Shown: in pieces, positions 8,079-36,530 of the stretch
Numbering within the stretch: position 1 is the first letter of the stretch
How the letters are laid out: the number at the start of each line of letters is the position of its first letter
NCBI RefSeq assembly: GCF_021531915.1
Contig: NZ_JAFBIV010000004.1
Location: forward strand, 62,001 to 126,000
Direction of reading: 5' to 3'
Length of the DNA stretch: 64,000 bases
Source of the DNA: Oscillibacter valericigenes
GTDB lineage: Bacteria; Bacillota; Clostridia; Oscillospirales; Oscillospiraceae
Program-made: the position numbers and the translations under genes
The notes under the pieces: generated by a model
The model's database searches: none
What the model saw: the letters and a program-made list of their open reading frames with translations, nothing else
Told to the model about the DNA's origin: nothing

Positions 8079-8111
8079 AGTTGTCTGCCTCCCCTCTGGG
8101 AAATCGTTCGT

Positions 8112-8612
8112 TTACTTGTTTTCCTGGTGTTCCGCTTCCAGCTTGTGGATCTCGTCCCGCAGCTCCGCGGCCCGCTCGAAGTTCTCCTGGTGGACGGCCT
8201 TCTTCATCTCCAGCCGCAGGGCGTTCAGCTTTCGCTGATAGGCGAACCAGTTCTGGTCCTCCTGCCCCACCAGGTCCTCCTGCTTTCCGCTGGTCTGGAC
8301 CTCCTGCTGGACCGGTGCCGCACTCAGTGCCGGCATATCGGCGAAGAAATCATCGAAGGGGTCCTCCAGCATCCGGCTCATCCGGCCCATCAGGCTGGGC
8401 ACAGGGGCAAAGAAGTCATCGAAGAGACTGCCGCCGAACATGCTGCCGAAGCCCTGCATCATCCGCTGACTGTGAGCCGCCAGCTTCTGGGTGTAGCCCA
8501 GCTTCTCGGCACACTCGCTGCACAGGTGCTTCTCGGTGACCTTTCCGTTGATGTTGCTCTGATACATAAAGGTAACTTCATTCTTACCGCAATTCTCGCA
8601 TTTCATAATCAA
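8112..8612 (-). CDS. mcsA: McsA-like zinc-binding ClpC regulator with UVR domain
   Basis: 166 residues. The N-terminus carries two Cys pairs (CENCGKN and CSECAEKLG) for zinc. A low-complexity middle rich in Phe, Asp and Met (about 55-110) separates it from a C-terminal UVR motif (about 125-160, LEMKKAVHQENFERAAELRD) matching the UVR domain in ClpC. In Bacillus McsA activates the arginine kinase McsB and helps present substrates to ClpC. No mcsB lies beside it here, so its partner is either ClpC directly or a kinase elsewhere. Second gene of the CtsR operon. Confidence 0.88.
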   Translation of the reverse strand: MIMKCENCGKNEVTFMYQSNINGKVTEKHLCSECAEKLGYTQKLAAHSQRMMQGFGSMFGGSLFDDFFAPVPSLMGRMSRMLEDPFDDFFADMPALSAAPVQQEVQTSGKQEDLVGQEDQNWFAYQRKLNALRLEMKKAVHQENFERAAELRDEIHKLEAEHQENK

Positions 8613-24145: not shown

Positions 24146-24176
24146 AAAGGGAGAGGCATTTGCCTCTCCCTTTGTT
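24146..24176. terminator. Terminator after the PadR operon
   Basis: AAAGGGAGAGGC-ATTT-GCCTCTCCCTTT stem with T-rich tail. On the minus strand it also follows the displaced spo0A end. Confidence 0.85.
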
Positions 24177-24184
24177 TGCGCTTT

Positions 24185-24355
24185 TCAGCCCAGCAGGCCC
24201 GTGCCGTTTTTCTTCTCCAGCAGGAGCCGGTCAGCGATCATGGCGATGAATTCACTATTGGTGGGCTTGCCCTTGGCGTTGCTCACCGTGTAGCCGAAGT
24301 ACTTCTGCAGGGTTTCCAGGTCGCCCCGGTCCCAGGCCACCTCGATGGCGTGGCG
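24185..24355 (-). pseudogene. spo0A: Displaced native 3' end of spo0A
   Basis: This minus-strand fragment encodes the last 57 residues of Spo0A and its TGA at 24185. The first 122 bp (24355 to 24234) are identical to 33457-33578 in the working gene. Beyond that it reads [16 protein letters not shown], where the working gene reads [14 protein letters not shown]. The DNA for the shared ADRL differs at synonymous sites, so the two tails have separate origins. It has no start or promoter of its own. It is what the chromosome carried before integration; excision across the repeats would restore it to spo0A. Confidence 0.92.
24234..24355. repeat. Left attachment-type direct repeat (spo0A sequence)
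   Basis: 122 bp identical to 33457-33578. It starts GCGATCATGGCGATGAATTC and ends GATGGCGTGGCG. The crossover site must lie within it. Confidence 0.9.
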
Positions 24356-24755
24356 GATGGGTGTGCCTGTCGGCCCACAGAAAACGGCTTCGCTTCAAAA
24401 CAGATTTGTTGCTTAATTTGCTGGAATGAACCACGACTGTTCATCGGGTTGTCCTAATGCTATCAGATGTTTTTGAATCCGTCAACTTCTAAGCCTATAA
24501 ACTCTTGAAATTCGAAGTTTGTTGGGGGTATTTAAACACAAATCGATCTCCACTATCAACTTTTGAAGACTTTCTTCAACTTTCCAATAGGTTTTGAGAA
24601 CTTTGTAGTGTCCAGGAGTCAGAAAAGAGTCTGCCGCAAGGCTTGCCCTCATGCCACTTTGAGTCCCGCTCCAAAGTTCGGTTTCTCCTGCCATCAATCA
24701 GCCTCAAATGCGAGGCTGATTTTTTCTTTTTTACAACACCTTGATGGAATGTTTA
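24356..24755. other. Left arm of the element, no gene found
   Basis: About 400 bp of AT-rich sequence after the left repeat. Short frames here have no ribosome sites. A small inverted repeat (TCAGCCTC/GAGGCTGA, 24699-24721) followed by a T-run may insulate the first promoter module. Confidence 0.5.
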
Positions 24756-24840
24756 TGTGCCAGGGCATAAAAATAATTTTGCTATACTAATATCAGAAAA
24801 CAGGGGAACACAAAACAACAAAACAAAGGAGATTATAAAA
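24756..24840 (+). promoter_or_regulatory. Promoter module 1 of 3
   Basis: TGTGCCAGGG, 17-18 bp, extended -10 TTTGCTATACTAA, then ATCAGAAA-CAGGGGAACACAAAA and a strong AAAGGAG site before the ATG at 24841. It is nearly the same as the modules at 25103 and 25230. Confidence 0.75.
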
Positions 24841-25089
24841 ATGTTCGAAAGAATGACTGTTGCTGACTACAAAGAAATCTATGAAAAAATTCTTCACCTC
24901 TCATTTGATGCCGACGGTTTTGGGCTGTTTAAGCACATTACTGATGAAGATGTCGAAAAGTGCATTTGGATCGCTGCAATCCTGGATGTGCTGAACGATG
25001 TCCCTCTCAGCAGAATGGAGCATACCTTCAAGCAGAAGAAGATGACATTCGATTGGGATAAGTTCTGGAAAGAAAATTACGAATCCTAA
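24841..25089 (+). CDS. Small acidic element protein, function unknown
   Basis: 82 residues, rich in Asp, Glu, Lys and aromatic residues, predicted mostly helical with no membrane segment. It begins MFERMTVADYKEIYEKILHL and ends in a Trp/Phe/Lys-rich helix (DWDKFWKENYES). I recognise no family. It has a strong ribosome site (AAAGGAG, 9 nt) and the first of three matching promoter modules, so it is probably well expressed. It is followed by the second module. Confidence 0.65.
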   Translation: MFERMTVADYKEIYEKILHLSFDADGFGLFKHITDEDVEKCIWIAAILDVLNDVPLSRMEHTFKQKKMTFDWDKFWKENYES

Positions 25090-25102
25090 CAACGGTTCAT
25101 TT

Positions 25103-25187
25103 TTGTGCCAGGCCAATACACCGAGTTTGCTATACTAATATCAGAAACAAGGGGAACACAAAACCCAAACAAAAAGGAGATGACGAC
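25103..25187 (+). promoter_or_regulatory. Promoter module 2 of 3
   Basis: TTGTGCCAGGC, 18 bp from CCAGG to TATACT, extended -10 TTTGCTATACTAA, ATCAGAAACAAGGGGAACAC, and AAAAAGGAG before the ATG at 25188. Confidence 0.75.
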
Positions 25188-25220
25188 ATGAAGAAGAGAA
25201 AGAGAAAAAGGAAAAGGTAA
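25188..25220 (+). CDS. Polybasic 10-residue micro-ORF MKKRKRKRKR
   Basis: ATG at 25188, TAA at 25218. The product would be MKKRKRKRKR, nine Lys/Arg residues after Met. AAAAAGGAG sits 9 nt before the ATG and a whole promoter module lies upstream, exactly as for the genes at 24841 and 25326. There is no other gene between modules 2 and 3, so this is the only thing the second promoter could express before the next promoter. It may be a nucleic-acid-binding or toxic micropeptide, a ribosome-stalling leader for the next gene, or the remnant of a lost gene. The frame is too short for coding statistics. Confidence 0.5.
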   Translation: MKKRKRKRKR

Positions 25221-25229
25221 TGGAACACT

Positions 25230-25325
25230 TTTGTACCAGGTAAGAAAATCAAATTTGCTATACTAACATCAGAAACAAGGGAAACAAAAAATTCAAAATA
25301 AAATTATTAAAAGGAGATTATTAAA
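25230..25325 (+). promoter_or_regulatory. Promoter module 3 of 3
   Basis: TTGTACCAGGT, again 18 bp from CCAGG to TATACT, TTTGCTATACTAA, ATCAGAAACAAGGGAAAC, then a longer AT-rich leader and AAAAGGAG before the ATG at 25326. Confidence 0.75.
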
Positions 25326-25760
25326 ATGACTAACATGACTATTCGCTACATCGACGAGAAGACTGCTCAGGTTACCAAGACTTTCCAGAAGAACGCTTCC
25401 ATCTTCGGCACCGACGAGTTCAAGCTCTGGCGTGAGTACAAGAAGGAGTTCCCCAATGCCGTAATGGTCACCAAGAGCATCAAGAAGAACCCCAACAAGC
25501 TGAACATCACCAAGAACATGACCTACGAAAACATGGCTGCTTTCATCCGCGAGCAGGACGATGCTGAGGCTGTCATGGCTGAGTTCCAGAAGCAGATCAA
25601 TCTCTCTAAGGTCAAGGCTAACCCCTACCGCGCTGTCCTGGCATGGTTCAAGCAGAAGTACACCAATGTCAATGACTACATGGATTACTTCGAAAACCTG
25701 GCTGCCGAGAAGGCTCAGAAGGAAAGCCTGTTTGCTCTCGCCCCCGCCGCGAACTTCTAA
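25326..25760 (+). CDS. Small element protein, paralogue 1 of a pair
   Basis: 144 residues, soluble, Lys-rich. Sequence landmarks are a beta-rich N-terminal part with FGTDEFKLWREYKKEFPNAV, then KNMTYENMAAFI, and KANPYRAVLAWFKQKY. The protein at 25806 has the same landmarks in the same order (LTYENMEKHI, AASPYKYVTDWFVAQF), so the two arose by duplication. Codons strongly prefer AAC, AAG, CTG, CGC and GCT, the pattern of highly expressed genes and unlike the rest of the element. I do not recognise a function. Third promoter module upstream; 45 bp to the next gene. Confidence 0.7.
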   Translation: MTNMTIRYIDEKTAQVTKTFQKNASIFGTDEFKLWREYKKEFPNAVMVTKSIKKNPNKLNITKNMTYENMAAFIREQDDAEAVMAEFQKQINLSKVKANPYRAVLAWFKQKYTNVNDYMDYFENLAAEKAQKESLFALAPAANF

Positions 25761-25805
25761 TCCGCTAACAGATACGAATTTGAATTAAGAAAGGAATTTT
25801 GAATT

Positions 25806-26243
25806 ATGGCTACTAAGGGTTACAAGATTGACTTCACCAGCAATACTCTGGTGATGAACTACAAGTTCCACTCCGCTTCTCAGGAATACGGCACTCCCGA
25901 AAACAAACTGGTCAAAGAAATTCTGAGCGACTTTCCCACACTGATTGTTGTTGTCAAGGCTGGCCGCGAGGTCAAGACCACCAATAAGAACAAGCGCCTG
26001 ACCTATGAGAACATGGAAAAGCACATCAGCGCTTATGAGAACTCCGCCGAACTCCTGGATGTTTTTGAAACCGTCAAGGCTCTCTCCAAGACTGCCGCCA
26101 GCCCCTACAAGTATGTTACTGACTGGTTTGTGGCACAGTTCCCCGACTACAAGAAAGCCCCTGTTTTCAAGGATGAAAAACTGACTGTCCCCCCCGTGAA
26201 GGTTCCTGACATCAGAGAATACAAAATCAAGAAGGCTGCTTAA
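25806..26243 (+). CDS. Small element protein, paralogue 2 of a pair
   Basis: 145 residues, related to the gene at 25326 (see TYENM and SPY-x5-WF landmarks) but with a diverged N-terminus (MATKGYKIDFTSNTLVMNYK) and a basic Pro/Val-rich tail. It shows the same strongly biased codon use. AAAGGAA precedes the ATG. Probably co-transcribed with its paralogue and with the genes at 26266 and 26458. Function not recognised; the pair could form a hetero-oligomer. Confidence 0.7.
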   Translation: MATKGYKIDFTSNTLVMNYKFHSASQEYGTPENKLVKEILSDFPTLIVVVKAGREVKTTNKNKRLTYENMEKHISAYENSAELLDVFETVKALSKTAASPYKYVTDWFVAQFPDYKKAPVFKDEKLTVPPVKVPDIREYKIKKAA

Positions 26244-26265
26244 TCAAGAAATGGAGGAAATGAAA

Positions 26266-26454
26266 ATGACTAAGTTTGAGAAGTATGTGGAAGATCTGGA
26301 AATCTACTGCCAGGAGTTCGGCTGCAATAAGCGTGAGGGTCTGATCGACATTCTGTTGATGCTCCATGAAGGTGTCGCCTGGATGGATCAACTCGAAAAA
26401 GAACTCGATTCCATGAGCGATGAAAAACTGATGGAAGTCTACATTAACTTTTGA
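26266..26454 (+). CDS. Small helical acidic protein
   Basis: 62 residues, predicted entirely helical, acidic (MTKFEKYVEDLEIYCQEFGC and ELDSMSDEKLMEVY). ATG at 26266 is chosen because GGAGG lies 8 nt upstream; the ATG at 26251 overlaps that site. Only 3 bp separate its stop from the next start, so the two are coupled. Function not recognised. Confidence 0.6.
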   Translation: MTKFEKYVEDLEIYCQEFGCNKREGLIDILLMLHEGVAWMDQLEKELDSMSDEKLMEVYINF

Positions 26455-26457
26455 GCC

Positions 26458-27021
26458 ATGGAAGAAGTAATCTTTTACAAAGAGTGGCTGCCACTGCCAA
26501 AAGCAGAGTTCAATGTGTTGGCGATGATTGCTGAGCAAGGCGGCTCCTTCTCTGGCAACTACTCTGACATGTGCAGATACTTAGGTGTAACCCCTCAGGA
26601 TCGAAACAGAACCGCACTTAGAAACGCCATTGAGTCTTTAACCTCCCATGGCTTCATCTCCTGTGAGAGCCACGGCAGAACCCGCCATCTGACAGTCATT
26701 CCAAAAGCAACAGAGATCAGGCTGCCGCGCCCCTGGGTGCAATCGGTCATTCAGCACGACTACTCTTCCGAGGCAGTTGCCTTTGCCCATGTCCTCAAAG
26801 TCTTCATCTGGATCGCCCTCAACGATCTGAGCGTGGTGACAAACGGCATGATTGCCGAAGATCTGAATGTGTCTGTGTCAACTGTGGTGAATGCAAAGAA
26901 TGTCCTTGAGCGCGAATATCAGAACATCTCGAAAAGAAAAGTTTCAGAGAAACTTGGCGAGGATTTTTTCAGGACATTGGGACAGGAACTTGCGGCTGGT
27001 GCATGGTGGACAGAGATCTAA
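26458..27021 (+). CDS. Winged-helix DNA-binding protein of the element
   Basis: 187 residues. It has two probable helix-turn-helix parts: about 15-75 (FNVLAMIAEQGGSFSGNYSD, then RTALRNAIESLTSHGFI and a wing) and about 115-155 (TNGMIAEDLNVSVSTVVNAK). A double winged-helix of this sort is typical of plasmid replication initiators and of some regulators; a replication role for the excised element is possible but not shown. It lacks an obvious ribosome site and follows the previous stop by 3 bp. A long-looped terminator lies downstream. Confidence 0.6.
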   Translation: MEEVIFYKEWLPLPKAEFNVLAMIAEQGGSFSGNYSDMCRYLGVTPQDRNRTALRNAIESLTSHGFISCESHGRTRHLTVIPKATEIRLPRPWVQSVIQHDYSSEAVAFAHVLKVFIWIALNDLSVVTNGMIAEDLNVSVSTVVNAKNVLEREYQNISKRKVSEKLGEDFFRTLGQELAAGAWWTEI

Positions 27022-27090
27022 AAGAGATACTTTTTCCTTGCTAATAAATAGAAACTAAAATTATTACTGAGAAAAAAGTATCTCTTTTTA
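27019..27090 (+). terminator. Long-looped terminator-like inverted repeat
   Basis: AAAAGAGATACTTTTT (27020-27035) pairs with AAAAAAGTATCTCTTTTT (27072-27089) across a loop of about 36 nt; ends in a T-run after the gene at 26458. Confidence 0.6.
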
Positions 27091-27100
27091 ATTGAAATAA

Positions 27101-27158
27101 GCATCGCTCTTTTGCTACGAAGCCGCAACAGCGGCGTTCGTGCAAAAGTAGCGAATGC
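27101..27158. repeat. 58-bp imperfect palindrome
   Basis: GCATCGCTCTTTTGC at the left pairs with GCAAAAGTAGCGAATGC at the right, and inside lie GCCGC-AACA-GCGGC flanked by CGAA/TTCG. The whole can fold into a single long hairpin with small bulges. It is not followed by a T-run, so a terminator is unlikely. The rest of 27159-27254 shows nothing I can name. Confidence 0.6.
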
Positions 27159-27254
27159 TTTAGTGGATAAATCGACCTCCGCCGAGTCCGTGTTTATTCG
27201 TCATTACCGAAGCAGCCGTGAAAGTTCAGAAAACTGTCCTCAGAGCGCTTGATT

Positions 27255-27283
27255 TTGATTTTACACAAAATTTTTGTTATAAT
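27255..27283 (+). promoter_or_regulatory. Sigma-A-type promoter
   Basis: TTGATT (27255-27260), 17-bp spacer, TATAAT (27278-27283), about 65 bp before the ATG at 27350. Confidence 0.7.
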
Positions 27284-27349
27284 ATTTATAGAAAGTTAAG
27301 GGATTAGAACTTTCCTGAAGCTTTACTACGATGAAAAGGAGCTCATTTT

Positions 27350-27553
27350 ATGAGTAAGTCTATTACAGTCGATCTTGATTGGTTTAACATCATTACCGCC
27401 TACGCCGAAGAGCATTGCATGACAAAGAAGGATACCTTGTCGATGCTGTTGGACATCTCTATCGGTCGCAAGAACACATTTTACGATTGGTATTTGGCGT
27501 ATGGCACGGAAGACACAGAAAAAGCAGGAGGAAATTCTGATGAAGAATTATGA
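27350..27553 (+). CDS. Small element protein before the GIY-YIG frame
   Basis: 67 residues, MSKSITVDLDWFNIITAYAE at the start, acidic tail (DTEKAGGNSDEEL). No family recognised. AAAAGGAG precedes the ATG. Its end overlaps the ATG of the GIY-YIG frame at 27540 by 14 bp, so the two should be translated together. It has its own sigma-A-type promoter. Confidence 0.6.
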   Translation: MSKSITVDLDWFNIITAYAEEHCMTKKDTLSMLLDISIGRKNTFYDWYLAYGTEDTEKAGGNSDEEL

Positions 27554-27989
27554 GAGAAATAACTACGAAGAAAACGTATACAAGTGGCTAAAGCGCAATG
27601 GCTGGGCAGATACTTTTGAATACCCCGGCATTTATGAAATCCGCATCGATGATTAGACCGTCTACATCGGCAAAAGCAAAAACATGCTCCGCCGTCTGGC
27701 GCAACATTGGGTCGGCTTCCAAACAAAAAGTGAACGCAAATACTGTATCCTTTCTGAAGCAAAAAAACATGGGCACAGGGTTTCTTTCGGTGTACTTCAT
27801 TACGCCAACAATTTGTTGCCCCAACTGATTGATGAAGAGTTAGGATAGATCGAGGGTGAGTTCATCAGGGAGTTAATGCCCGTTTTGAACACATAGATTC
27901 CAAAAGCCGACAACTGGAGAAACTATGAAATCAACAAAGCCGCAAGCACCATCACTCTGTCCGAGATTTTGCAATAGCAAAATACATAA
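27540..27989 (+). pseudogene. GIY-YIG nuclease frame interrupted only by four TAG codons
   Basis: One frame of 149 codons from ATG 27540 to TAA 27987 encodes a GIY-YIG domain. The core GIYEIRI-(x)-VYIGKSKNMLRRL is intact, including the two Tyr, the Arg of LRRL, and the metal-binding Glu in EGEFIRELMPVLNT. In-frame stops are at 27654, 27846, 27894 and 27975, every one TAG; there is no TAA, TGA or frameshift before the end. Gln fits well at the sites (for example LNT-Q-IP). The frame uses CAA for Gln but has no CAG. It is either an amber-recoded gene needing a TAG-reading tRNA or a decayed gene. ATG overlaps the previous gene; no strong ribosome site. Confidence 0.75.
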
Positions 27990-28047
27990 ATCTTGATAGA
28001 GCAGATTTTATATAGATTGAAGAAATTTTCATTAGGGAGGATTAGAT

Positions 28048-28263
28048 ATGAGTTATAGCAAACTTGACTACATCGACATGATGATAGAACACGTTTAGGA
28101 CTTACGCAGAAGTATTTGCGGAGAACCATCCGCAGATACACTTGCCTTATGGCATTTGGACGATGTGCATTTTCAAATGTGGCGCGACTACTACGCCCAG
28201 CATGAAGAAGAACTCGACGATAACTTTACCTTTAAGTTTACAAGTGAGGTGAAGTTGAAGTGA
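28048..28263 (+). pseudogene. Short element frame with one internal TAG
   Basis: AGGGAGG lies 6 nt before ATG 28048. The frame runs 71 codons to TGA 28261 and is broken once, by TAG at 28096 (codon 17, in MMIEHV-x-DLRRSICGEP). The remainder reads well (LWHLDDVHFQMWRDYYAQHE) with an acidic/aromatic composition like other small element proteins. It uses both CAA and CAG elsewhere. The stop overlaps the GTG of the next frame. Like its neighbour it is either recoded or decayed. Confidence 0.6.
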
Positions 28264-28403
28264 GTGACAAGAAGAAAGATAAGGAGAAAGACAAGAAAAA
28301 GAAGAAGTCCGTAATGGAGGCTGAAATCATGCGGTTTATGGAAAAGAGCCTAAAATCTGCACTGGATGTCGCCTTAGATGACATCTTTAAAGAATGGAAA
28401 TAA
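28260..28403 (+). CDS. Lysine-rich 47-residue protein
   Basis: GTG at 28260 overlaps the previous stop (GTGA). The first 18 residues are almost only Lys and Asp/Glu (SDKKKDKEKDKKKKKSV), followed by an amphipathic helix (EIMRFMEKSLKSALDVALDD). It ends in TAA. Function unknown; the charged run could bind nucleic acid. A good terminator follows, marking the end of the 27350-28403 operon. Confidence 0.55.
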   Translation: MSDKKKDKEKDKKKKKSVMEAEIMRFMEKSLKSALDVALDDIFKEWK

Positions 28404-28404
28404 C

Positions 28405-28448
28405 AAGAGGCGGAAGCCGTTCTGAATGGAACGACTTCCGCCTTTTTT
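28405..28448 (+). terminator. Rho-independent terminator
   Basis: AGGCGGAAG-C-CGTTC stem pairing with GAACG-A-CTTCCGCCT, followed by TTTTTT. The stretch 28449-28686 beyond it holds no feature I can support. Confidence 0.9.
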
Positions 28449-28686
28449 CGTTATCCTACGCCTGACGGCAGACTTTCCCCCTGTCGATCACAGCCCATAA
28501 AACCGTCTTCTGGATTGAAAATGCCTCTCCGTGGGAGCGTTGCCCACGCATTTTCGGCAAGGGGCATCGGAAAAATTTTTATCCCGAAATGGGTGCCCCA
28601 CCTGTCCAATCAACCATTTGTTTTGCTGAACACTTTTGGATGGATTCAAAGGGGCTGAAAACTGCCCCGAAAAGGAGGAATTTTGT

Positions 28687-28938
28687 TCAGGGAACTTCGT
28701 CCCCCGTTTCCTGAACAGGGACATACTCAATCAGGTCTGCGGGCTGACACTCCAAGAGGCCGCAGAGCGTTTCAAGGTTTTCCCAAGACACGCCTTGCTT
28801 GTTTCTGAACTTCTGGAGCGTGGATTGGCTCAGCAATCCATCTGTGCGGATTTTGTTGGTGTTGTAGCCCTTCTCCTTCAACGCAGCCAGAACATCGACT
28901 TTATACTGCAACGGTATCGCAATCGCCTCCTTTTCCAT
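28687..28938 (-). CDS. XRE-family repressor of the element
   Basis: 83 residues, a single Cro/C1-type helix-turn-helix of the short YozG-like class: LAALKEKGYNTNKIRTDGLL, then LQKFRNKQGVSWENLETLCG and LLECQPADLIEY. AAGGA lies 2 nt too close to the ATG but is the only candidate. It faces the gene at 29109 across a region with several TGCACGA sites, and is therefore a likely repressor of both promoters, in the manner of a phage or ICE maintenance switch. Confidence 0.85.
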   Translation of the reverse strand: MEKEAIAIPLQYKVDVLAALKEKGYNTNKIRTDGLLSQSTLQKFRNKQGVSWENLETLCGLLECQPADLIEYVPVQETGDEVP

Positions 28939-28952
28939 TGTCCTTATTATAG

Positions 28953-29051
28953 TCTATCCATTGCACGAAATCAAGTGCAAAATTACACAAGGAATAGCAC
29001 TATATTTCGTGCAAATCGTCAATTGCATTGCACGATAATTCGTGCTATAAT
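28953..29051. promoter_or_regulatory. Divergent operator-promoter region of the XRE repressor
   Basis: Rightward promoter: TTGCAT (29023-29028), 17 bp, TATAAT (29046-29051). The palindrome GCACGATAATTCGTGC (29030-29045) lies inside the 17-bp spacer. Further half-site pairs are TGCACGAAATCAAGTGCA near 28960-28978 and TTTCGTGCAA near 29005-29014. A TATAAT-like box for the repressor lies near 28945-28950 on the minus strand. Confidence 0.8.
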
Positions 29052-29108
29052 AAAGACAGTTAAGGGAGATACCCAAACACAAATAACATCCAAAAGGAGA
29101 TATGAATT

Positions 29109-29387
29109 ATGAGTAAGAACGAACTGATTGCCAAGATCGAAGCCCTGAACGAGTGGGAAGCCCTGATGGAGGAAGCCAAATCTGAAGCCGAAGCCATCCG
29201 CGACAGCATCAAGGCTGAAATGTTGGAGCGAGAGGTTGAAGAACTGACCGCAGGACAGTACATCATCCGCTGGACTTCTGTGATCTCCAACCGCTTCGAC
29301 ACCACGGGATTCAAGAAGGTCTATGGTGATCTCTACAAAGCCTTTACGAAGCAGACCAACAGCCGCCGCTTCTCCATCTCTTGCTAA
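29109..29387 (+). CDS. Small element protein of a family common on mobile elements
   Basis: 92 residues. A helical, acidic first half (LIAKIEALNEWEALMEEAKS) leads to a beta-rich second half with IIRWTSVISNRFDTTGFKK and TNSRRFSISC. Short proteins with this arrangement occur in many Firmicute islands next to recombinases; I know of no demonstrated function. AAAAGGAG precedes the ATG, and the operator-controlled promoter at 29023 drives it. It ends before a hairpin (29404-29427, GCTCCACGGG arm) leading to the serine recombinase. Confidence 0.65.
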   Translation: MSKNELIAKIEALNEWEALMEEAKSEAEAIRDSIKAEMLEREVEELTAGQYIIRWTSVISNRFDTTGFKKVYGDLYKAFTKQTNSRRFSISC

Positions 29388-29448
29388 ACCAAATACGCTC
29401 CACGGGCAACACCAAGCCCGTGGAGCAGTCAAAAAGGAGGACAGACAT

Positions 29449-30036
29449 ATGAACCACGGATACGCACGATGCTCCACCAACGAGAGCAAGCAGGACATTG
29501 ATCGTCAGGTGCGGGAACTGAAACAGGCAGGGGCAGAACGCATCTTCCTTGAATACGAACACGGGGACGCCGACGTGAAGTGCCAGTTGTCTTCTCTTTT
29601 GGAACAGGCACAGCCGGGAGACACGATTATTACTTTGGAAGTCTCCCGTCTCGCCAGAAGCACAAAGCAGTTGTGTGAGATCATTGAGATCATCAAGGCG
29701 AAGCATTTGCGGTTGGTGATTGTGGGGAGCATTACCGTGGATTGCTCCAACGGAGAGATTGACCCTATGACAAATGCCTTTATCCAGATGTCCGGGGTGT
29801 TTGCCGAATTAGAATTGCGTATTATCCGGGAGCGTGTGCGGTCTGGCATGGCAAACGCCAGAGCAAAGGGAGCAAAGATTGGCAGACCGCAGGCAACGGC
29901 AGACGATATTCCCGCCGTGTTTCTCCGCCATTATCCCGCGTTCAAAAATAAGCAGTTGAATGTATCGGAGTTGGCAAGAGTCTGTGATTTGAGCAGAACG
30001 ACAGTCTATAAGTATCTCAACCTTTTGGAATGTTAA
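29449..30036 (+). CDS. Serine recombinase (resolvase/invertase family)
   Basis: 195 residues, the normal small-resolvase length. The catalytic domain (1-135) starts NHGYARCSTNES with the nucleophilic Ser at position 8 or 9, followed by the conserved LEVSRLARSTKQL arginines and the FAELELRIIRERVRSGMANA helix. The C-terminal helix-turn-helix is LNVSELARVCDLSRTTVYKY. It may resolve element dimers or invert a segment; no res site was identified. ATG at 29449 has AAAAAGGAGG 9 nt upstream. It is in the operon controlled by the XRE operator. Confidence 0.93.
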   Translation: MNHGYARCSTNESKQDIDRQVRELKQAGAERIFLEYEHGDADVKCQLSSLLEQAQPGDTIITLEVSRLARSTKQLCEIIEIIKAKHLRLVIVGSITVDCSNGEIDPMTNAFIQMSGVFAELELRIIRERVRSGMANARAKGAKIGRPQATADDIPAVFLRHYPAFKNKQLNVSELARVCDLSRTTVYKYLNLLEC

Positions 30037-30065
30037 AAAGGAGTGGGATTTCCCACTCCTTTTAT
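30037..30065. terminator. Terminator after the serine recombinase
   Basis: AAAAAGGAGTGGGA/TCCCACTCCTTTT stem with a TT loop, between convergent genes. Confidence 0.85.
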
Positions 30066-30073
30066 GTACTGTA

Positions 30074-30787
30074 TTACTCGACAATGTAAGCATCCACGCA
30101 ACCATCGGCGGTTATTTTGTAGGAATATGTGATTTCCTGTCCTTTGTAAGAACTAACATCATCTCTAAAATGAACTACCTTCAAGTACGAGTTGTTGGGG
30201 AATTCGATATTCCATGCATTCTCACCATAACTTGCGTTTTGGCTATGAAGTTTTCCTGTTGCTTCAAAACGATCGCTGGCAATGGCGGAGTTCTTGAATA
30301 CCAGGTCAATAACAGTCTGCGTACCCCAATCGGGAATCGTTTCATCATGGCTGCTCACATCATCGAGCTTGCCAACAAAATTCAGTCTCTGCTGATGCTC
30401 TAAAGAGATCAGATCATCCAAAGGAAGATACAGATGTGCAACCATCATATTTGCGGCAGTTGCATAGGCCCCCTGTTCATCTGTAATGTAAAAAGTGATA
30501 ACTGCATGATCTTCTTCAACAGACCAAATCTCGCCGCCAAAAGTGTATACATTTCCTACTAAACTCTTGGCAAAAGCAATGTTAGTGATAGACTTGTCGA
30601 TTTCATCTCGTGTTAAAGCAGTTGCACTACTCAACATTTCCTCTTTAGTAATTGTTGCAGTAATTTCTGTAGCAGTTGTATTTCCTTCATTCTTGGTTGC
30701 TTCTTCGGGTGTGTTGTTTCCTCCACCACAAGCACACAGGGACAGGCATAGAACAAGTGCCAAGAGCAGGGAAATATACTTTTTCAT
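30074..30787 (-). CDS. Element-encoded lipoprotein
   Basis: 237 residues. Signal MKKYISLLLALVLCLSLCAC with lipobox LCAC, lipidation at Cys20, then a Gly/Asn/Thr-rich linker. The mature part resembles the OB-fold tRNA_anti-like lipoproteins seen on clostridial elements: NVYTFGGEIWSVEEDHAVIT, LNFVGKLDDV, and a second similar half ending ITYSYKITADGCVDAYIVE. Such proteins may bind an envelope component; the function is not established. ATG at 30787 has AAGG 6 nt upstream; ATG at 30793 is an alternative. Confidence 0.8.
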   Translation of the reverse strand: MKKYISLLLALVLCLSLCACGGGNNTPEEATKNEGNTTATEITATITKEEMLSSATALTRDEIDKSITNIAFAKSLVGNVYTFGGEIWSVEEDHAVITFYITDEQGAYATAANMMVAHLYLPLDDLISLEHQQRLNFVGKLDDVSSHDETIPDWGTQTVIDLVFKNSAIASDRFEATGKLHSQNASYGENAWNIEFPNNSYLKVVHFRDDVSSYKGQEITYSYKITADGCVDAYIVE

Positions 30788-30868
30788 AGTCATCCTTCTT
30801 TCTCTAAAATTAAAAAAGTGTGTAGCCCCGAATGGAACTACACACCGAAAAACGCATAGCCCCATTGC

Positions 30869-30976
30869 TGCGACACAATCATTCGACGACCCCAAAGGAT
30901 GCCAAATTAGAGGGTGCGTTTTTACCAAAGTAAAAACACATCCTTTGTATCGCCGAAATTATATGATTGTGTCGCA
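30869..30976. repeat. Nested inverted-repeat structure of 108 bp
   Basis: Outer arms TGCGACACAATCAT (30869-30882) and ATGATTGTGTCGCA (30963-30976) are perfect 14-bp complements. Inside lie AAAGGATG/CATCCTTT and an innermost hairpin GTGCGTTTTTAC-CAAA-GTAAAAACAC, as well as TTCG/CGAA. The whole folds as one cruciform with two internal bulges. A further hairpin (GTGTGTAG...CTACACAC, near 30820-30845) lies between it and the lipoprotein start. Confidence 0.7.
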
Positions 30977-31092
30977 AGAACACTTTACCACAGTTAGATG
31001 GAAAATTCAAGATAAGGCGAGACGCAATGTCTTTTTTCTTTTACTTTTGGCGTGGTATAATACTCAAAACATCATCTACGGAGGCTGCAAGC

Positions 31093-32169
31093 ATGGCATC
31101 ACCGATCAAGAACAGCGACAAGGGCGGCAAGCGTCCCGGCCAGAAGTTCAAATCTCTGCTGGTATGGCAATATCTTTTGAAGCACACAGACGATGACCAT
31201 GCTGCCAGCTCCGAGGCCATCAAGGAGCATTTGCGGGAATACGGCATCACCGCAGACCGTCATTCCATCGCCCGCGACATCGATGCACTGAATGAACTCT
31301 TCGCCCTGGACATGAACGCGGATATTGAAGACCGTGACCGCTTGAATTATGAAATTGTCTACGATGCCAGCAAGCGCGGCTACAAGGTCGTCTGCCGCCC
31401 CTACGAGTTCCAGGAACTTCGTCTACTGGCAGAGTGCGTCCGCGCTTCCAAATTCATCTCCAAGAGCCAGGAAGAGCATTTGCTGACTGCCATTGAGGGT
31501 CTGTGCAGCGAGAGCCAGGTGGAGGAACTGCAAAACGAAGTCTACCTGGTCGGACGCAGCAAAACCAGCAACAAGTACATCATGGCTTCCATGCTGAAGA
31601 TCAACCAGGCAATCAAGGCAAAATGGAAAATCAGTTTCAAGTACCTGAAGCACACCCTGAATGATCGTTCCACCCAGGTCGCCAGGAGAGGCGGAAAGGC
31701 GTACATCCGCAGTCCCTTCAAACTGCTTATCAATGACGGCAACTACTACCTCCTGGCTTACGACAGTGACAAGGAGGACATGAGAACCTACCGCCTTGAC
31801 CGCATGAAGGAAGTCGAGATCATCAGGGAACCGAGAGACGGCACTCAGGTTTACGAAAAGATAAACATGAGAACTTACACCCAGCGCGTCTTTTCCATGT
31901 TCGGCGGCGAGGATAAGTTCGTCAGCATCCGCTTCACCAATGACCTCCTGGACACCGCCGTGGAACGCTTCGGCAACAGCGAAGAGGTTTTTTACCGTCC
32001 TGACGATAGTGGACATTTTGTTGTGTCTGCCCATGTTGAGATCAGCAAACAGTTTTACGCATGGATTTGCGGTTTCCATACCAAAGCCAGGATCATCAAT
32101 CCCCCTGAAGTTGTAGAGGGCATGAAATCCTTCCTTAAGGACATCTCCAGCAGATACGAAAGTGAATAA
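31093..32169 (+). CDS. WYL-domain transcriptional regulator
   Basis: 358 residues. An N-terminal winged helix (about 15-85: LVWQYLLKHTDDDHAASSEA, RHSIARDIDALNELF) leads to a WYL domain (about 170-260; ISFKYLKH, YIRSPFKLLINDGNYYLLAY, YRLDRMKEVEI) and the WCX C-terminal extension. WYL regulators sense ligands, often nucleotides or nucleic acids, and control phage-defence or DNA-damage genes. ATG at 31093 has GGAGG 9 nt upstream, and TATAAT lies near 31055. It may control the neighbouring lipoprotein or integrase. Confidence 0.9.
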   Translation: MASPIKNSDKGGKRPGQKFKSLLVWQYLLKHTDDDHAASSEAIKEHLREYGITADRHSIARDIDALNELFALDMNADIEDRDRLNYEIVYDASKRGYKVVCRPYEFQELRLLAECVRASKFISKSQEEHLLTAIEGLCSESQVEELQNEVYLVGRSKTSNKYIMASMLKINQAIKAKWKISFKYLKHTLNDRSTQVARRGGKAYIRSPFKLLINDGNYYLLAYDSDKEDMRTYRLDRMKEVEIIREPRDGTQVYEKINMRTYTQRVFSMFGGEDKFVSIRFTNDLLDTAVERFGNSEEVFYRPDDSGHFVVSAHVEISKQFYAWICGFHTKARIINPPEVVEGMKSFLKDISSRYESE

Positions 32170-32177
32170 AAGTAGAA

Positions 32178-32216
32178 ACAACCCTCCAGAAAGTTGATAC
32201 TTCTGGAGGGTTGTTG
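32178..32216. terminator. Bidirectional terminator between WYL gene and integrase
   Basis: ACAACCCTCCAGAAG arm pairs with CTTCTGGAGGGTTGT across a short loop. Confidence 0.85.
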
Positions 32217-32250
32217 TCAAAAGTTGATGGCTAAAGCCAATTAAAGGTGG

Positions 32251-33243
32251 TTACATCCGCGCCACAGGACTGAAGTTCTGATAGCGTTTCCCAATGTCTT
32301 CATCGTTCAAATCGAGGTAGGCTTGCTCTGTGACGGTCACGCTGGAATGACCGAGAATTTTACTCAGCGTGTAAATGTCCATGCCACTCATCAGACAGCG
32401 CTTCGCAAAGTTGTTCCGCAGACAATGAGGCGAAACCTTTTCACTCAGACTGGCGCGGCGGAGGTAATGTTTGAAGTTGGTTTCAAAGTTGCTCACCTGG
32501 ATGCTTGCCCCGCTTCGCTTCACAGGAAAAAGGTAGTCACTCTCCACATACCTGTCCTTGAACTGAATCCACCGCCGCAGGATCACTTCTGTTTTGGGAG
32601 AGAAGAAGACAACTCTGTCCCGCCGCCCCTTGGTAATCTCAGCCCGCAGGAAAACCTTGTGTGCAGCCAGGTCAATGTCATCCATCAGCAAGCAACTGCA
32701 TTCTCCCAACCGCATTCCACTGTCGATCATCAGCATAATCATGGCAAAGTCGCGGTGTTCAGGGTAGTAGGACTTATCCAACTGAGCAATCAGTTTCTTG
32801 AAGTCATCATCACTGATGAACTCCTTCGCCTTGCGGTTCACCTTCAACTGTCTGACTTTCCTCATGGGGTTCTTTTGGAGAACATAGTCCCTGTCCAGCC
32901 AGTTGAAGAAAACGCGGAGATTGCGGATGTAGTTGTTAATGGTGGTCACAGTGATAGGATTGCGAAAATCCCTTCGTCTGTCGGGATGGTTGGTTTCCTT
33001 CTTCTTTTCGTCTGCGTAAAACGAGTATTTCCCACGCTCCTGCAAATCATTGATGTAACGGCGGATGATGGACTCTGTAACCTTGTCAACTGTGAAAATG
33101 TTCATCTGCTCTTCGCACCATCTCTGAAACAGGCGGAGGGTCTGTTCGTAACTGGTCATTGTTCGCTCGCGGAGTTGACGGCTTCTGCAAAACACCATAA
33201 ACTCATCAATCTGCCAATCAAAACCCATGTCTGTCATAGCCAT
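32251..33243 (-). CDS. Tyrosine recombinase / integrase
   Basis: 330 residues. Core-binding SAM-like domain about 10-125; catalytic domain about 145-320 with the Arg in DSGMRLGE, Lys in EITKGRRDR, H-x-x-R in SPHCLRNNFA, second His in KILGHSSVTV and Tyr in TEQAYLDL. All catalytic residues are present. It should catalyse integration and excision across the spo0A repeat. ATG at 33243 has AGGAG 5 nt upstream; GTG at 33249 would overlap that site. It faces the right repeat at 33457. Confidence 0.95.
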   Translation of the reverse strand: MAMTDMGFDWQIDEFMVFCRSRQLRERTMTSYEQTLRLFQRWCEEQMNIFTVDKVTESIIRRYINDLQERGKYSFYADEKKKETNHPDRRRDFRNPITVTTINNYIRNLRVFFNWLDRDYVLQKNPMRKVRQLKVNRKAKEFISDDDFKKLIAQLDKSYYPEHRDFAMIMLMIDSGMRLGECSCLLMDDIDLAAHKVFLRAEITKGRRDRVVFFSPKTEVILRRWIQFKDRYVESDYLFPVKRSGASIQVSNFETNFKHYLRRASLSEKVSPHCLRNNFAKRCLMSGMDIYTLSKILGHSSVTVTEQAYLDLNDEDIGKRYQNFSPVARM

Positions 33244-33413
33244 AAACACTCCTGTTCATTGGGATATTTTCATACCCAATAAAGCAGGAGTGTTCATAGG
33301 TTCAGCAAAATAAGTTTATAGGTCTGTTTTGTCGGCGTTCATTGAAACTTTGGAGCCTTCGTAGGTTTGGCGATTTTGAAAAAATTTTAGCAAACCTTTG
33401 TGCCGCAAGGCTT

Positions 33414-34172
33414 TCAGCCAACATGATTTTTCTTCATGTCGAGGCAAAGTCTGTCTGCGATCATGGCGATGAATTCACTATTGGTGGGCTTGCCCTTGGC
33501 GTTGCTCACCGTGTAGCCGAAGTACTTCTGCAGGGTTTCCAGGTCGCCCCGGTCCCAGGCCACCTCGATGGCGTGGCGAATGGCCCGTTCCACCCGGCTG
33601 GGCGTGGTGGCAAACCGCTTGGCCACCGCCGGATACAGCACCTTGGTCACAGCGTTGATGACCTCCATATCGTTCACGGCGATGATGATGGCCTCCCGCA
33701 GATACTGGTAGCCCTTGATATGGGCCGGGACGCCGATCTCATGGATCACTGCTGTCACCCGGTTCTTCAGGGCCACGGCGTGCTCCTCCGGTGTGGCCGG
33801 CTGGCCAAAGATCATCCGCATCCGATCCAGCAGGGTCCCCACCTCACAGGGCTTGGGCAGGAAATAGGCGGCGCCCATGCCCATGGCCTCCGCCACCACC
33901 TGGTCTGTGCAGAAAGCGGAGAGCACGATCACCTTGGTCTTTCCCTGCTGCTCCTTCAGCTGCCGAAGAATCGTGACACCGTCAGTTCCCGGCAAAACCA
34001 GGTCCATCAATGCCACATCCGGAGTCTTCTGCTCCAGAATCTGTAAAGCTTCCGTCCCGTCACCCGTAGACCCCACCACGGCAAATTCTTCTGTTTTTTC
34101 GATCACTTCCCGCAACATGCTGCGGAATTCTTCGTTGGCATCTGCCAGTAATACGGTTTTCCTGTTTTCCAT
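33414..34172 (-). CDS. spo0A: Sporulation master regulator Spo0A, 3' end supplied by the element
   Basis: 252 residues. Receiver domain 1-120 with phospho-acceptor D57 ([13 protein letters not shown]), S in VLSAF and K in FLPKP. The acid pocket reads ADAN, so one of the two Asp of the usual ADDN is Ala. The effector domain (about 140-252) has the strongly conserved [19 protein letters not shown] recognition helix and [16 protein letters not shown]. The last 10 residues ([10 protein letters not shown]) come from the integrated element. AGGAAAGG precedes the ATG. Spo0A~P starts sporulation and represses abrB in Bacillus. Confidence 0.95.
33457..33578. repeat. Right attachment-type direct repeat (inside spo0A)
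   Basis: Identical to 24234-24355. It forms part of the working spo0A coding sequence, encoding the end of the DNA-binding domain. Confidence 0.9.
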
Positions 34173-34978: not shown

Positions 34979-35019
34979 CGTATGCAGAGATTATATACCA
35001 TTTTTTCAGTTTTATCCAG

Positions 35020-35338
35020 TACGAAGGCGGGATTTCTCCCGCCTTCCAGCTTGTCGAAAAAATCTTTTCGACAAGCTACTGCAAGTTTTTCTGAACTTGA
35101 AAAGTTCAGAAAAACTTATGATTGAAAACGAATGGCCCAGGCCACCCTCTCTTGCCGCTGCGCGACAATTCACCTTGAGACACCCTTCCTGGGTTGTCTA
35201 CGCGCCAAGAGCCGCCTTTGGCGGTTGCGCTCCGACACGCTCTGCGGAGCAGTCTTTCGTAACTATCTTCCTTCCCGTTGCGCAAGTTTTCCGGGTTTAT
35301 CGACAGTCTACGAAGGCGGGATTCCTCCCGCCTTCGTA
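35020..35338. repeat. Dispersed structured repeat, copy B, nested between duplicated terminators
   Basis: The outer units are 35020-35046 and 35309-35335, a 27-bp near-perfect duplication (one mismatch) of a terminator palindrome GAAGGCGGGA/TCCCGCCTTC unrelated in sequence to that around copy A. The core, 35047-35308 (262 bp), matches 11314-11582 closely. Its second stem is longer here (16 bp, AAGTTTTTCTGAACTT arm). Its third stem reads CCGCC-TTT-GGCGG where copy A has CCGGGC-TTT-GCCCGG, and its TGCG-loop stem reads GCTC/GAGC where copy A has GCACC/GGCGC. It lies between convergent NUDIX and spoIVB genes. Confidence 0.85.
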
Positions 35339-35342
35339 CTTT

Positions 35343-36350
35343 TTATGCCGCTTTCAGCATAGTTTCCATGGAAATTCCATATCCTTTACAAGGATCGTTC
35401 AGCAAAACGTGGGTCACGGCGCCCACCAGCTTTCCATCCTGCAGAATGGGACTGCCGCTCATGCCCTGCACAATGCCGCCGGTGACGGCGATCAGCTCCG
35501 GGTCCGTCACGGAAATCACCATCTCCCGACCGTCCGAGGCATTGGGGATCACCTTCAAAACTTCAATTGCATATTCCTCCACCGTATCGCCCCGGACATT
35601 GGCCCGGATGACGGCAGGTCCCGCTTTTGCCGTGCCGGTGGATACTGCTGCGCCCAGCACCGCGGCATGATCCGCTGCATCCAGCGTTCCGAAAACACCG
35701 CAACTGGTGTTGGCGTACAGGTCACCCAGGTCAGCCGTCAGGTCAAAGTCGCCCTTCAGCTCACCGGCGCTGCCCGCGGTCCCCTTTTTCACCGCCTTGA
35801 CTGTGGAAGGCAGGATGGAACCGTCCGCAAAGGGCATCAGTTGGGCAGTGTCCACGTCGGTGATGCCGTGTCCCAGGGCGCCGAAGACACCCGTGGCCGG
35901 ATCATAATAGGTCATGGTGCCGATGCCCGCCATGCTGTCCCTGATCCAGGCGCCGATGCAGTAGACGCCCTGGTCATTGGGTTCCGGCTCCACGGTCAAT
36001 GTCACCGGGTCGCCCTGGCGCTGCACCTGAAGGTCGGTGGTGCTGCCGTCGCTTTCCTGCAGAAGCGCCTGGAACTGCTCCGTGGAGGTCACGGTGCTGC
36101 CGCCGCATTTGACGATGACATCTCCCGTTTGCAGTCCGCAGGCCCGGGCAGGCGTGCCGCCGTCCGAGAGCTTCACCACCACCACGCCCCGGGCAAACAG
36201 CTTGATGCCCACGGTGTGGCCCACCGGTACCAGCATCCGCGGCGTCATTTCGACGGCCATGGCCACACTTGCGGAGCACGCCAGAACCGCCAGGAGGCAC
36301 GCTGCTCCGAACCGCAAAAGCCGTTTTCTTGTTCCCGTTGTTCCATACAA
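35343..36350 (-). CDS. spoIVB: SpoIVB peptidase (sigma-K checkpoint serine protease)
   Basis: 335 residues from TTG at 36350. One membrane segment near 13-32 anchors it. A PDZ domain (about 55-135; GGTPARACGLQTGDVIVK) is followed by the S55 peptidase domain with the His in GALGHGITD and Ser in QGMSGSPI, both present. SpoIVB is secreted from the forespore and cleaves SpoIVFA to release pro-sigma-K processing. The start is uncertain: AGGAG lies 11 nt before the TTG, while GTG at 36362 is too close. Normally spoIVB is followed directly by spo0A; here a NUDIX gene and repeat B separate them. Confidence 0.93.
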   Translation of the reverse strand: MYGTTGTRKRLLRFGAACLLAVLACSASVAMAVEMTPRMLVPVGHTVGIKLFARGVVVVKLSDGGTPARACGLQTGDVIVKCGGSTVTSTEQFQALLQESDGSTTDLQVQRQGDPVTLTVEPEPNDQGVYCIGAWIRDSMAGIGTMTYYDPATGVFGALGHGITDVDTAQLMPFADGSILPSTVKAVKKGTAGSAGELKGDFDLTADLGDLYANTSCGVFGTLDAADHAAVLGAAVSTGTAKAGPAVIRANVRGDTVEEYAIEVLKVIPNASDGREMVISVTDPELIAVTGGIVQGMSGSPILQDGKLVGAVTHVLLNDPCKGYGISMETMLKAA

Positions 36351-36493
36351 TCCAAAAAACACTCCTTTCCAAAAAAATTGCAAACCGCCGGATGTCCCGG
36401 CTGGGTTATCTTCTGCGGTCTGTCCACGGTCCACACCCAGCAAAAAGCGGCAGCGATCCCATGGTTGTTTTTTGCTTTCCTGAAAATCCGGAC

Positions 36494-36530
36494 GAAAAAA
36501 GGACCTCACAGCCAAAAGACTGTGAGGTCC
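36494..36530 (-). terminator. Terminator of ftsZ
   Basis: GGACCTCACAG/CTGTGAGGTCC stem with loop TCTTTTGG; minus-strand T-run follows (36494-36500). Confidence 0.9.

Follow-up and report, generated by a model that had tools for sequence, protein, structure and literature searches.

Mobile elements and prophages that occupy the 3′ ends of conserved protein genes are familiar, with rlmH/orfX (SCCmec), guaA, rumA, rpsI, and icd among their targets. The available text of PMC10747680 describes a second group of elements, which lie in the sporulation genes sigK, spsM, spoVFB, gerE, and yabG. Here we analyzed a 64,000-nucleotide stretch of Oscillibacter valericigenes (contig NZ_JAFBIV010000004.1, positions 62,001 to 126,000, hereafter the window), which contains an island inserted at the 3′ end of spo0A, the gene for the sporulation master regulator. 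With a probability of roughly 0.88, we read the island as a site-specific integrative element whose tyrosine recombinase, Int, uses the spo0A 3′ end as its attachment site. Int would excise and reinsert the element reversibly, with recombination taking place in about 17 bp that encode an invariant FIAMIA motif. The tail carried by the element would then replace the native end in a nearly neutral exchange that keeps Spo0A working, and a hairpin over the int ribosome-binding site may both block int expression from spo0A transcripts and stand in for the displaced terminator. The target was probably chosen because spo0A is conserved and common in spore-formers, not for control over sporulation.

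The locus shares several properties with other elements at gene 3′ ends, including an integrase at the junction, a carried gene end, direct repeats, a gene that stays whole, and tandem accretion. It differs from them in its target, in its long repeats (61–376 bp in the members measured), and in a covarying hairpin between target and int. The skin, SP-beta, vfbin, and yin elements (PMC10747680, PMC5025042) are likewise mobile elements in a sporulation gene, but they interrupt the gene until excision, whereas the spo0A element swaps the gene end, leaves the open reading frame (ORF) whole, and has a tyrosine recombinase. In the open-licence literature searched, spo0A was not reported as an attachment site, and the available text of PMC5027557 mentions Spo0A just in a reference. 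Insertion at spo0A therefore looks unreported, although the strategy of carrying a gene end is known. The features that define the insertion are as follows, with L and G marking the loci and genomes used for comparison.

33414..34172 (−): spo0A, working chimeric gene of 252 residues; element-derived tail from 33414 to about 33457
33457..33578 (−): right repeat, within the working spo0A, exact repeat
33457..33473 (−): most likely crossover interval, TTCATCGCCATGATCGC, codons for FIAMIA; left counterpart at 24234–24250
32251..33249 (−): int, tyrosine recombinase (Phage_integrase PF00589, E = 7e-30); likely start ATG at 33243
24234..24355 (−): left repeat; spo0A fragment carried by the element as far as the crossover, then native 3′ end, exact repeat
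24185..24233 (−): displaced native spo0A 3′ end, based on the rejoined flanks; empty site L024 has a similar tail
24146..24173 (−): terminator-like hairpin past the native spo0A end, moved to the left end; from a sequence scan whose count of such sites was not above that in shuffled sequence

The initial annotation described perfect 122-bp direct repeats of spo0A around an AT-rich island with an integrase beside the right repeat, and each of these elements was confirmed. The exact repeats lie at 24234–24355 and 33457–33578, spaced by 9,223 bp, and remain 98.5% identical when stretched to 131 bp. Within the element, GC content is 40–52% in 1-kb bins, compared with mostly 55–66% outside, and a gap of 164 bp separates spo0A from int, which follows it on the same strand. 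The spo0A gene at 33414–34172 (−) is the sole full copy in the genome, and its product scores 292.9 bits against TIGR02875 (cutoff 200), with a Spo0A_C match at residues 139–242 (Pfam, E = 2.9e-46). When the flanks were rejoined in silico, an intact Spo0A of 254 residues with the native tail was recovered.

Comparison with relatives also revealed empty sites. We fetched 29 spo0A loci out of the 53 other genus genomes with a match, and in 19 of them spo0A adjoins its native 3′ neighbor. The remaining ten comprise one with int, two with little or no downstream DNA (L023 and L028), and seven with neither int nor the native neighbor. The initial annotation named the same duplication in relatives without the integrase as a refuting case, and none of the 29 loci has a second piece of spo0A in its flank. 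A perfect 122-bp repeat is able to cause misassembly, and either an assembly artefact or a duplication by homologous recombination could be proposed here. However, the same arrangement occurs in an isolate, and other family members have both ends on a single contig, which makes an artefact unlikely. We give this explanation a negligible probability, and a chance repeat was likewise rejected.

The isolate, Pseudoflavonifractor phocaeensis An901, carries an integrase 99% identical to that of the window, while its whole Spo0A is just 62% identical. Despite this overall divergence, the last Spo0A residues are the same in both. At the nucleotide level, the two loci are 47% identical over the 5′ part of spo0A and 84% identical over the 150 bp leading up to the presumed crossover. 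Past this point the values are 91% for the tail, 91.5% for the non-coding spacer, 95% for int, and 79% for a WYL-domain gene. This step is modest but consistent, and the non-coding spacer is more alike than the coding DNA before the crossover. The other end of the An901 element is on another contig. There, relatives of seven further genes of the window element are accompanied by a fragment of spo0A, after which comes a native tail unlike that of the window, DRLQLQRKKNGF. In both elements this fragment begins at the identical base, after left-end DNA that differs at 1 of 60 bases. Since the left-end DNA, the fragment start, and the tail are all shared, the spo0A fragment and tail are borne by the element, which supplies about the last 13 codons of the working gene. 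The annotated exchange of tails is strongly supported, with the native end at the far boundary restored by the rejoined flanks, and An901 also supports the proposal that the two ends have separate origins.

The crossover most likely falls within the 17 bp that encode FIAMIA, where strand exchange would occur. In TTCATCGCCATGATCGC the window and An901 are identical at 17 of 17 positions; the last difference between them in the gene body sits just before this interval, and the two repeats of the window part just after it. Copies in other members have the same codons at the crossover, with differences on one or both sides. The FIAMIA position corresponds to FIAMVAD in the Spo0A structures 1lq1 and 1fc3. 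Other blocks of identity inside the 122-bp repeat are a less likely but possible place for the crossover.

Int belongs to a family in which R180, K207, H275, R278, H301, and Y311, which we take to be the catalytic residues (RKHRHY type), are invariant in seven members. A profile of these seven members (E ≤ 1e-60, own genome counted) matched 3 of 86 genus genomes, 3 of 394 genomes in an order sample, 7 of 391 in a class sample, and 2 of 398 in a phylum sample. The initial annotation had proposed a search for elements with the same integrase at spo0A in relatives. Among 24 loci with enough upstream DNA, including the window and loci from IMG/VR, the integrase lies directly behind spo0A in 23. 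In 22 of these, tblastn detected spo0A immediately upstream, and L135 starts inside the last spo0A codons, as read by eye. The 22 include three integrases behind a partial spo0A copy (the second in L055, the second in G808, and that of G803) and three loci in which just the spo0A end is present (L136, L140, and L142). Ten loci with at most about 190 bp of sequence ahead of int (L068 plus nine contigs from IMG/VR) were left out of this count. By comparison, 12 integrases with about 22–34% identity had no spo0A beside them in the fetched flanks, some of which are short and reach contig ends. Profiles for XerC/XerD-like and other small tyrosine integrases match Int, all below their NCBIfam cut-offs. 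In named phage and plasmid collections, all matches were below 60% identity, and those listed were at about 23–29%. The spo0A-directed integrases are a family of their own, which, as judged from these loci, keeps its spo0A target across the Clostridia and one more distant lineage.

The insertions made by this family vary widely in content. The smallest, in G028 (L059 2564–4510), is 1.9 kb and consists of an intact integrase and a small ORF with little else. Measured from repeat to repeat, others span 2.1 kb (L056, with a broken int), 3.6 kb (L053), 8.1 kb (G803, in which one repeat abuts the end of its contig), 9.9 kb (G319), and 16.3 kb (G824, with terminase and head genes). Tandem arrays were found twice. 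L055/G829 has two ints and three spo0A 3′ ends, and L055 also carries an ArdC-like gene and a Phd/ParE pair. In G808 (L078 and L079), about 31 kb separate two ints, and the intervening DNA encodes portal, protease, head, major tail, and tape-measure proteins; by its gene content, this insertion is a tailed-phage-like prophage of about 30 kb at spo0A, bordered by another integrase from the same family. Downstream of int, no second spo0A copy was present in 60 kb of G615, 60 kb of G710, or 15 kb around that of G850. The O. valericigenes genome itself has a sibling element on contig C21 (1–8400; L019, L154, and L220) with a WYL gene and an integrase ORF of a different family (from 258), about 105 bp after a tRNA-Thr gene (78–153). 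A related backbone therefore uses another integrase and another site.

These features also bear on the proposal in the initial annotation that the element might excise in the mother cell in the manner of skin. Such a developmental element would restore the native spo0A end by excision in the mother cell or at the onset of sporulation. The location in a sporulation gene is consistent with this, as is the presence of spoIVA in the host, and elements in sigK, spsM, spoVFB, gerE, and yabG are known from the available text of PMC10747680. However, spo0A is a complete ORF whether or not the element is present, so the host gene is not interrupted and there is no need for excision. The family also includes a prophage and tandem arrays. 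The recombinases of skin elements are of the large serine type, while the junction enzyme here is a tyrosine recombinase, and the serine recombinase encoded at 29449 is just 195 residues, the size of a resolvase. Moreover, spo0A acts before a mother cell exists. We regard a skin-like role as very improbable, and the proposal found no support.

The same annotation suggested that the element senses or tunes sporulation, which could be achieved through the replacement tail, as it does differ from the native one. Yet nearly all of the swapped residues fall past the Spo0A_C match at residues 139–242. Native tails in genus relatives vary as much, in both sequence and length, and the two copies in L053 encode the same tail. 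This possibility is thus also improbable, if slightly less so than skin-like excision, and sensing or tuning is unsupported. The tail is in frame to its stop codon in 17 of the 18 members examined, the eighteenth (G774) being cut by a contig end. From these comparisons, Spo0A would stay working after the swap, which is likely close to neutral. As a separate observation, a genus relative, L145 (G010 C122), provides one isolated case of an in-frame TAG within spo0A, close to the start of the gene and at a position occupied by a Glu codon in the window.

Between spo0A and int is a spacer of 147–212 bp in the 17 members measured, with both genes on the same strand. Two features of the window spacer recur in other members.

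33241..33300 (−): conserved hairpin just before the int start; the likely int ribosome-binding site is in its 3′ arm
33251..33322 (no strand assigned): CC[ATG]AT[AG]AA repeats, three direct and one inverted; candidate arm-type integrase sites

The hairpin was spotted by reading the spacers, and the stretches for folding were picked by eye; of 17 folded, 13 gave z ≤ −4.7, and several members have a U-run after the hairpin. A first MAFFT alignment misplaced part of the structure, so a covariance model with held-out loci was used. This model detected the hairpin in 5 of 6 members outside model building and in 0 of 12 other loci, and a wider search placed it on the int strand at 21 of 23 sources, L068 and L142 being those without it. 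In 29 aligned matches, 10 of 12 base pairs change on both sides, with a covariation score of 0.592 compared with 0.314 after shuffling, and 92% of cells pair, compared with 79% when shuffled and 39–57% when slid. The rows of this alignment were fitted to the model; seven of them read the same palindromes on the reverse strand, and one is a second copy (L056, 12010). The CC[ATG]AT[AG]AA pattern occurs 34 times in the spacers, compared with 0.62 in mononucleotide shuffles, though it was chosen from the same sequences in which it was counted and is absent from five of the 17.

Given its position over the ribosome-binding site, the hairpin may insulate int from spo0A transcripts. An opposite arrangement can be envisioned in which int is read from the spo0A promoter, excision follows Spo0A autoregulation, and the hairpin is a switch rather than a barrier. 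The close, same-strand placement of int in all 17 members fits this, and a consensus scan of the window spacer found neither a sigma-70-like promoter nor a terminator between spo0A and int. A conserved hairpin, on the other hand, would stop translation or transcription of the read-through RNA. We consider such coupling unlikely, though more plausible than tail tuning or a skin-like role; the covarying hairpin more likely uncouples the two genes than couples them, which also argues against a sporulation sensor.

Several observations weigh against the proposed integration at spo0A or the role given to its hairpin. One family member, L058, has a frameshifted integrase and no spo0A upstream. The two repeats of the window are identical, so its sequence by itself does not place the crossover more closely than the 122 bp, and the identity step to An901 at the presumed crossover is modest (84% to 91–95%). 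The left fragment is also puzzling. Over 127 bp, that of the window matches its own host spo0A at 126 positions and the An901 fragment at 120, whereas the An901 fragment matches its own host at just 114. The match to the host goes beyond what Int recombination alone would produce and needs an origin in the same species, homologous recombination, or gene conversion. Because the fragment is closer to the host than to An901, this species was probably the source of the fragment in the window element, or else converted it. For the hairpin, folding was weaker (z −1.8 to −2.3) in L053, G400, and both L055 copies; the held-out L142 was missed by the covariance model; and L055 has a match before its second int and none before its first. 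The palindrome could alternatively be a site for a DNA-binding protein.

An integrase family dedicated to the sporulation master regulator means that elements and prophages occupy the sporulation switch in many clostridia while leaving it unbroken. The available text of PMC6907783 reports that Spo0A_C (PF08769) is enriched in mobile elements of gut Firmicutes (ImmeDB), which is read there as sporulation-related cargo. Fragments of spo0A at attachment sites may offer another explanation for this enrichment, and the element described here accounts for one sort of spo0A fragment that might be mistaken for cargo during annotation. Genetic tools for commensals that are hard to modify may also find a conserved landing site in the spo0A 3′ end, and the insulation of int from spo0A transcription becomes testable.

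Inside the element is a gene cluster (27350–28403, +) in which amber codons appear within reading frames.

27350..27553 (+): 67-residue protein, first gene of the cluster; no TAG, though the L149 homolog has one
27540..27989 (+): EndoII-like GIY-YIG nuclease with four in-frame TAG codons
28048..28263 (+): 71-residue protein with TAG at residue 17; the same TAG is present in all three homologs found
28260..28403 (+): 47-residue protein after the amber-coded genes, no TAG

When TAG is read as Gln, the nuclease matches GIY-YIG, phage genes annotated as endonuclease II, and structure 2wsh (profile E = 2e-7). In 400 family genomes, own genome included, it is present at nine places in six genomes, with an in-frame TAG in all nine; the C21 sibling carries amber genes at 7949–8386. 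The in-frame stops across these nine places comprise 24 TAG, one TGA, and one TAA. The residues facing TAG were Q 20 times, E 19, K 15, and others 28, tallied over ten sequences, L152 and An901 being identical to each other. By comparison, 7 of 38 long ORFs in the window outside the element, taken mechanically, end in TAG. A search for viral homologs with the lone GIY protein returned none, and a search with the alignment returned 16 IMG/VR loci, of which nine were examined. L163, L164, and L166 (44–62% identity) have TAG in the aligned part, while L165 (45%) and five more distant homologs do not. Slow decay of a dead gene would not favor TAG so strongly.

These genes may form an operon, carried by the element at the spo0A of spore-formers, that encodes an EndoII-like nuclease and a partner and is read with TAG as Gln. 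It would stay silent until a suppressor tRNA arrived with a phage or helper in which TAG is recoded to Gln. The nuclease would then be made and would attack, or would serve a helper-dependent step of a satellite. A CUA tRNA was not found in the host by pattern search or by ARAGORN on 46 tRNA-model hits over the cut-off, with a partial tRNA at C21:1–63 read by eye; this absence is unproven because the recovered tRNA set lacks tRNA-Trp and tRNA-Asn and is incomplete. If the host truly has no amber suppressor, it cannot make the nuclease and the operon is silent. Low-level readthrough, an unassembled host suppressor, and genes recently shed by recoded phages are possible alternatives, and we hold the gating model only tentatively. 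Our search of the literature on amber codons returned nothing relevant. If gated by a foreign suppressor tRNA, the operon would be a new kind of conditional gene.

The remaining features of the element are listed from the int end toward the left repeat.

31093..32169 (+): WYL-domain regulator, convergent with int; near int also in An901, L053, and L054
30074..30787 (−): predicted lipoprotein cargo; weak NCBIfam lipoprotein matches below cut-off
29449..30036 (+): small serine recombinase of resolvase/invertase type, 195 residues, by profile matches
29109..29387 (+): 92-residue protein, PHROG 434/6244-like
28687..28938 (−): Cro/C1-type helix-turn-helix repressor, by Pfam
26458..27021 (+): winged-helix protein with a weak DnaD-like match; possible replication protein
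25326..26243 (+): two related proteins of 144 and 145 residues, function not assigned; also in An901 and L053
24752–24833, 25100–25181, 25228–25309 (+): three repeated leaders of about 82 bp

PADLOC called the WYL gene CRISPR-associated signalling, and its remaining matches were weak. Identity as an integrative and conjugative or integrative and mobilizable element was considered and rejected, as no relaxase or conjugation match was obtained (15 element proteins in Pfam, nine or ten in PHROGs and NCBIfam). Identity as a prophage was likewise rejected, with no head, tail, or packaging genes among the element proteins in the profile searches. An inverted repeat of 28 nucleotides (27020–27088), 86% complementary with a 13-nucleotide gap, follows the winged-helix gene, and the second of the 82-bp leaders precedes a 10-codon ORF for MKKRKRKRKR (25188–25220). 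In the host flank, 35018–35340 contains two short repeats of a TACGAAGGCGGGATT hairpin unit, and the gene at 35343–36515 is presumably spoIVB.

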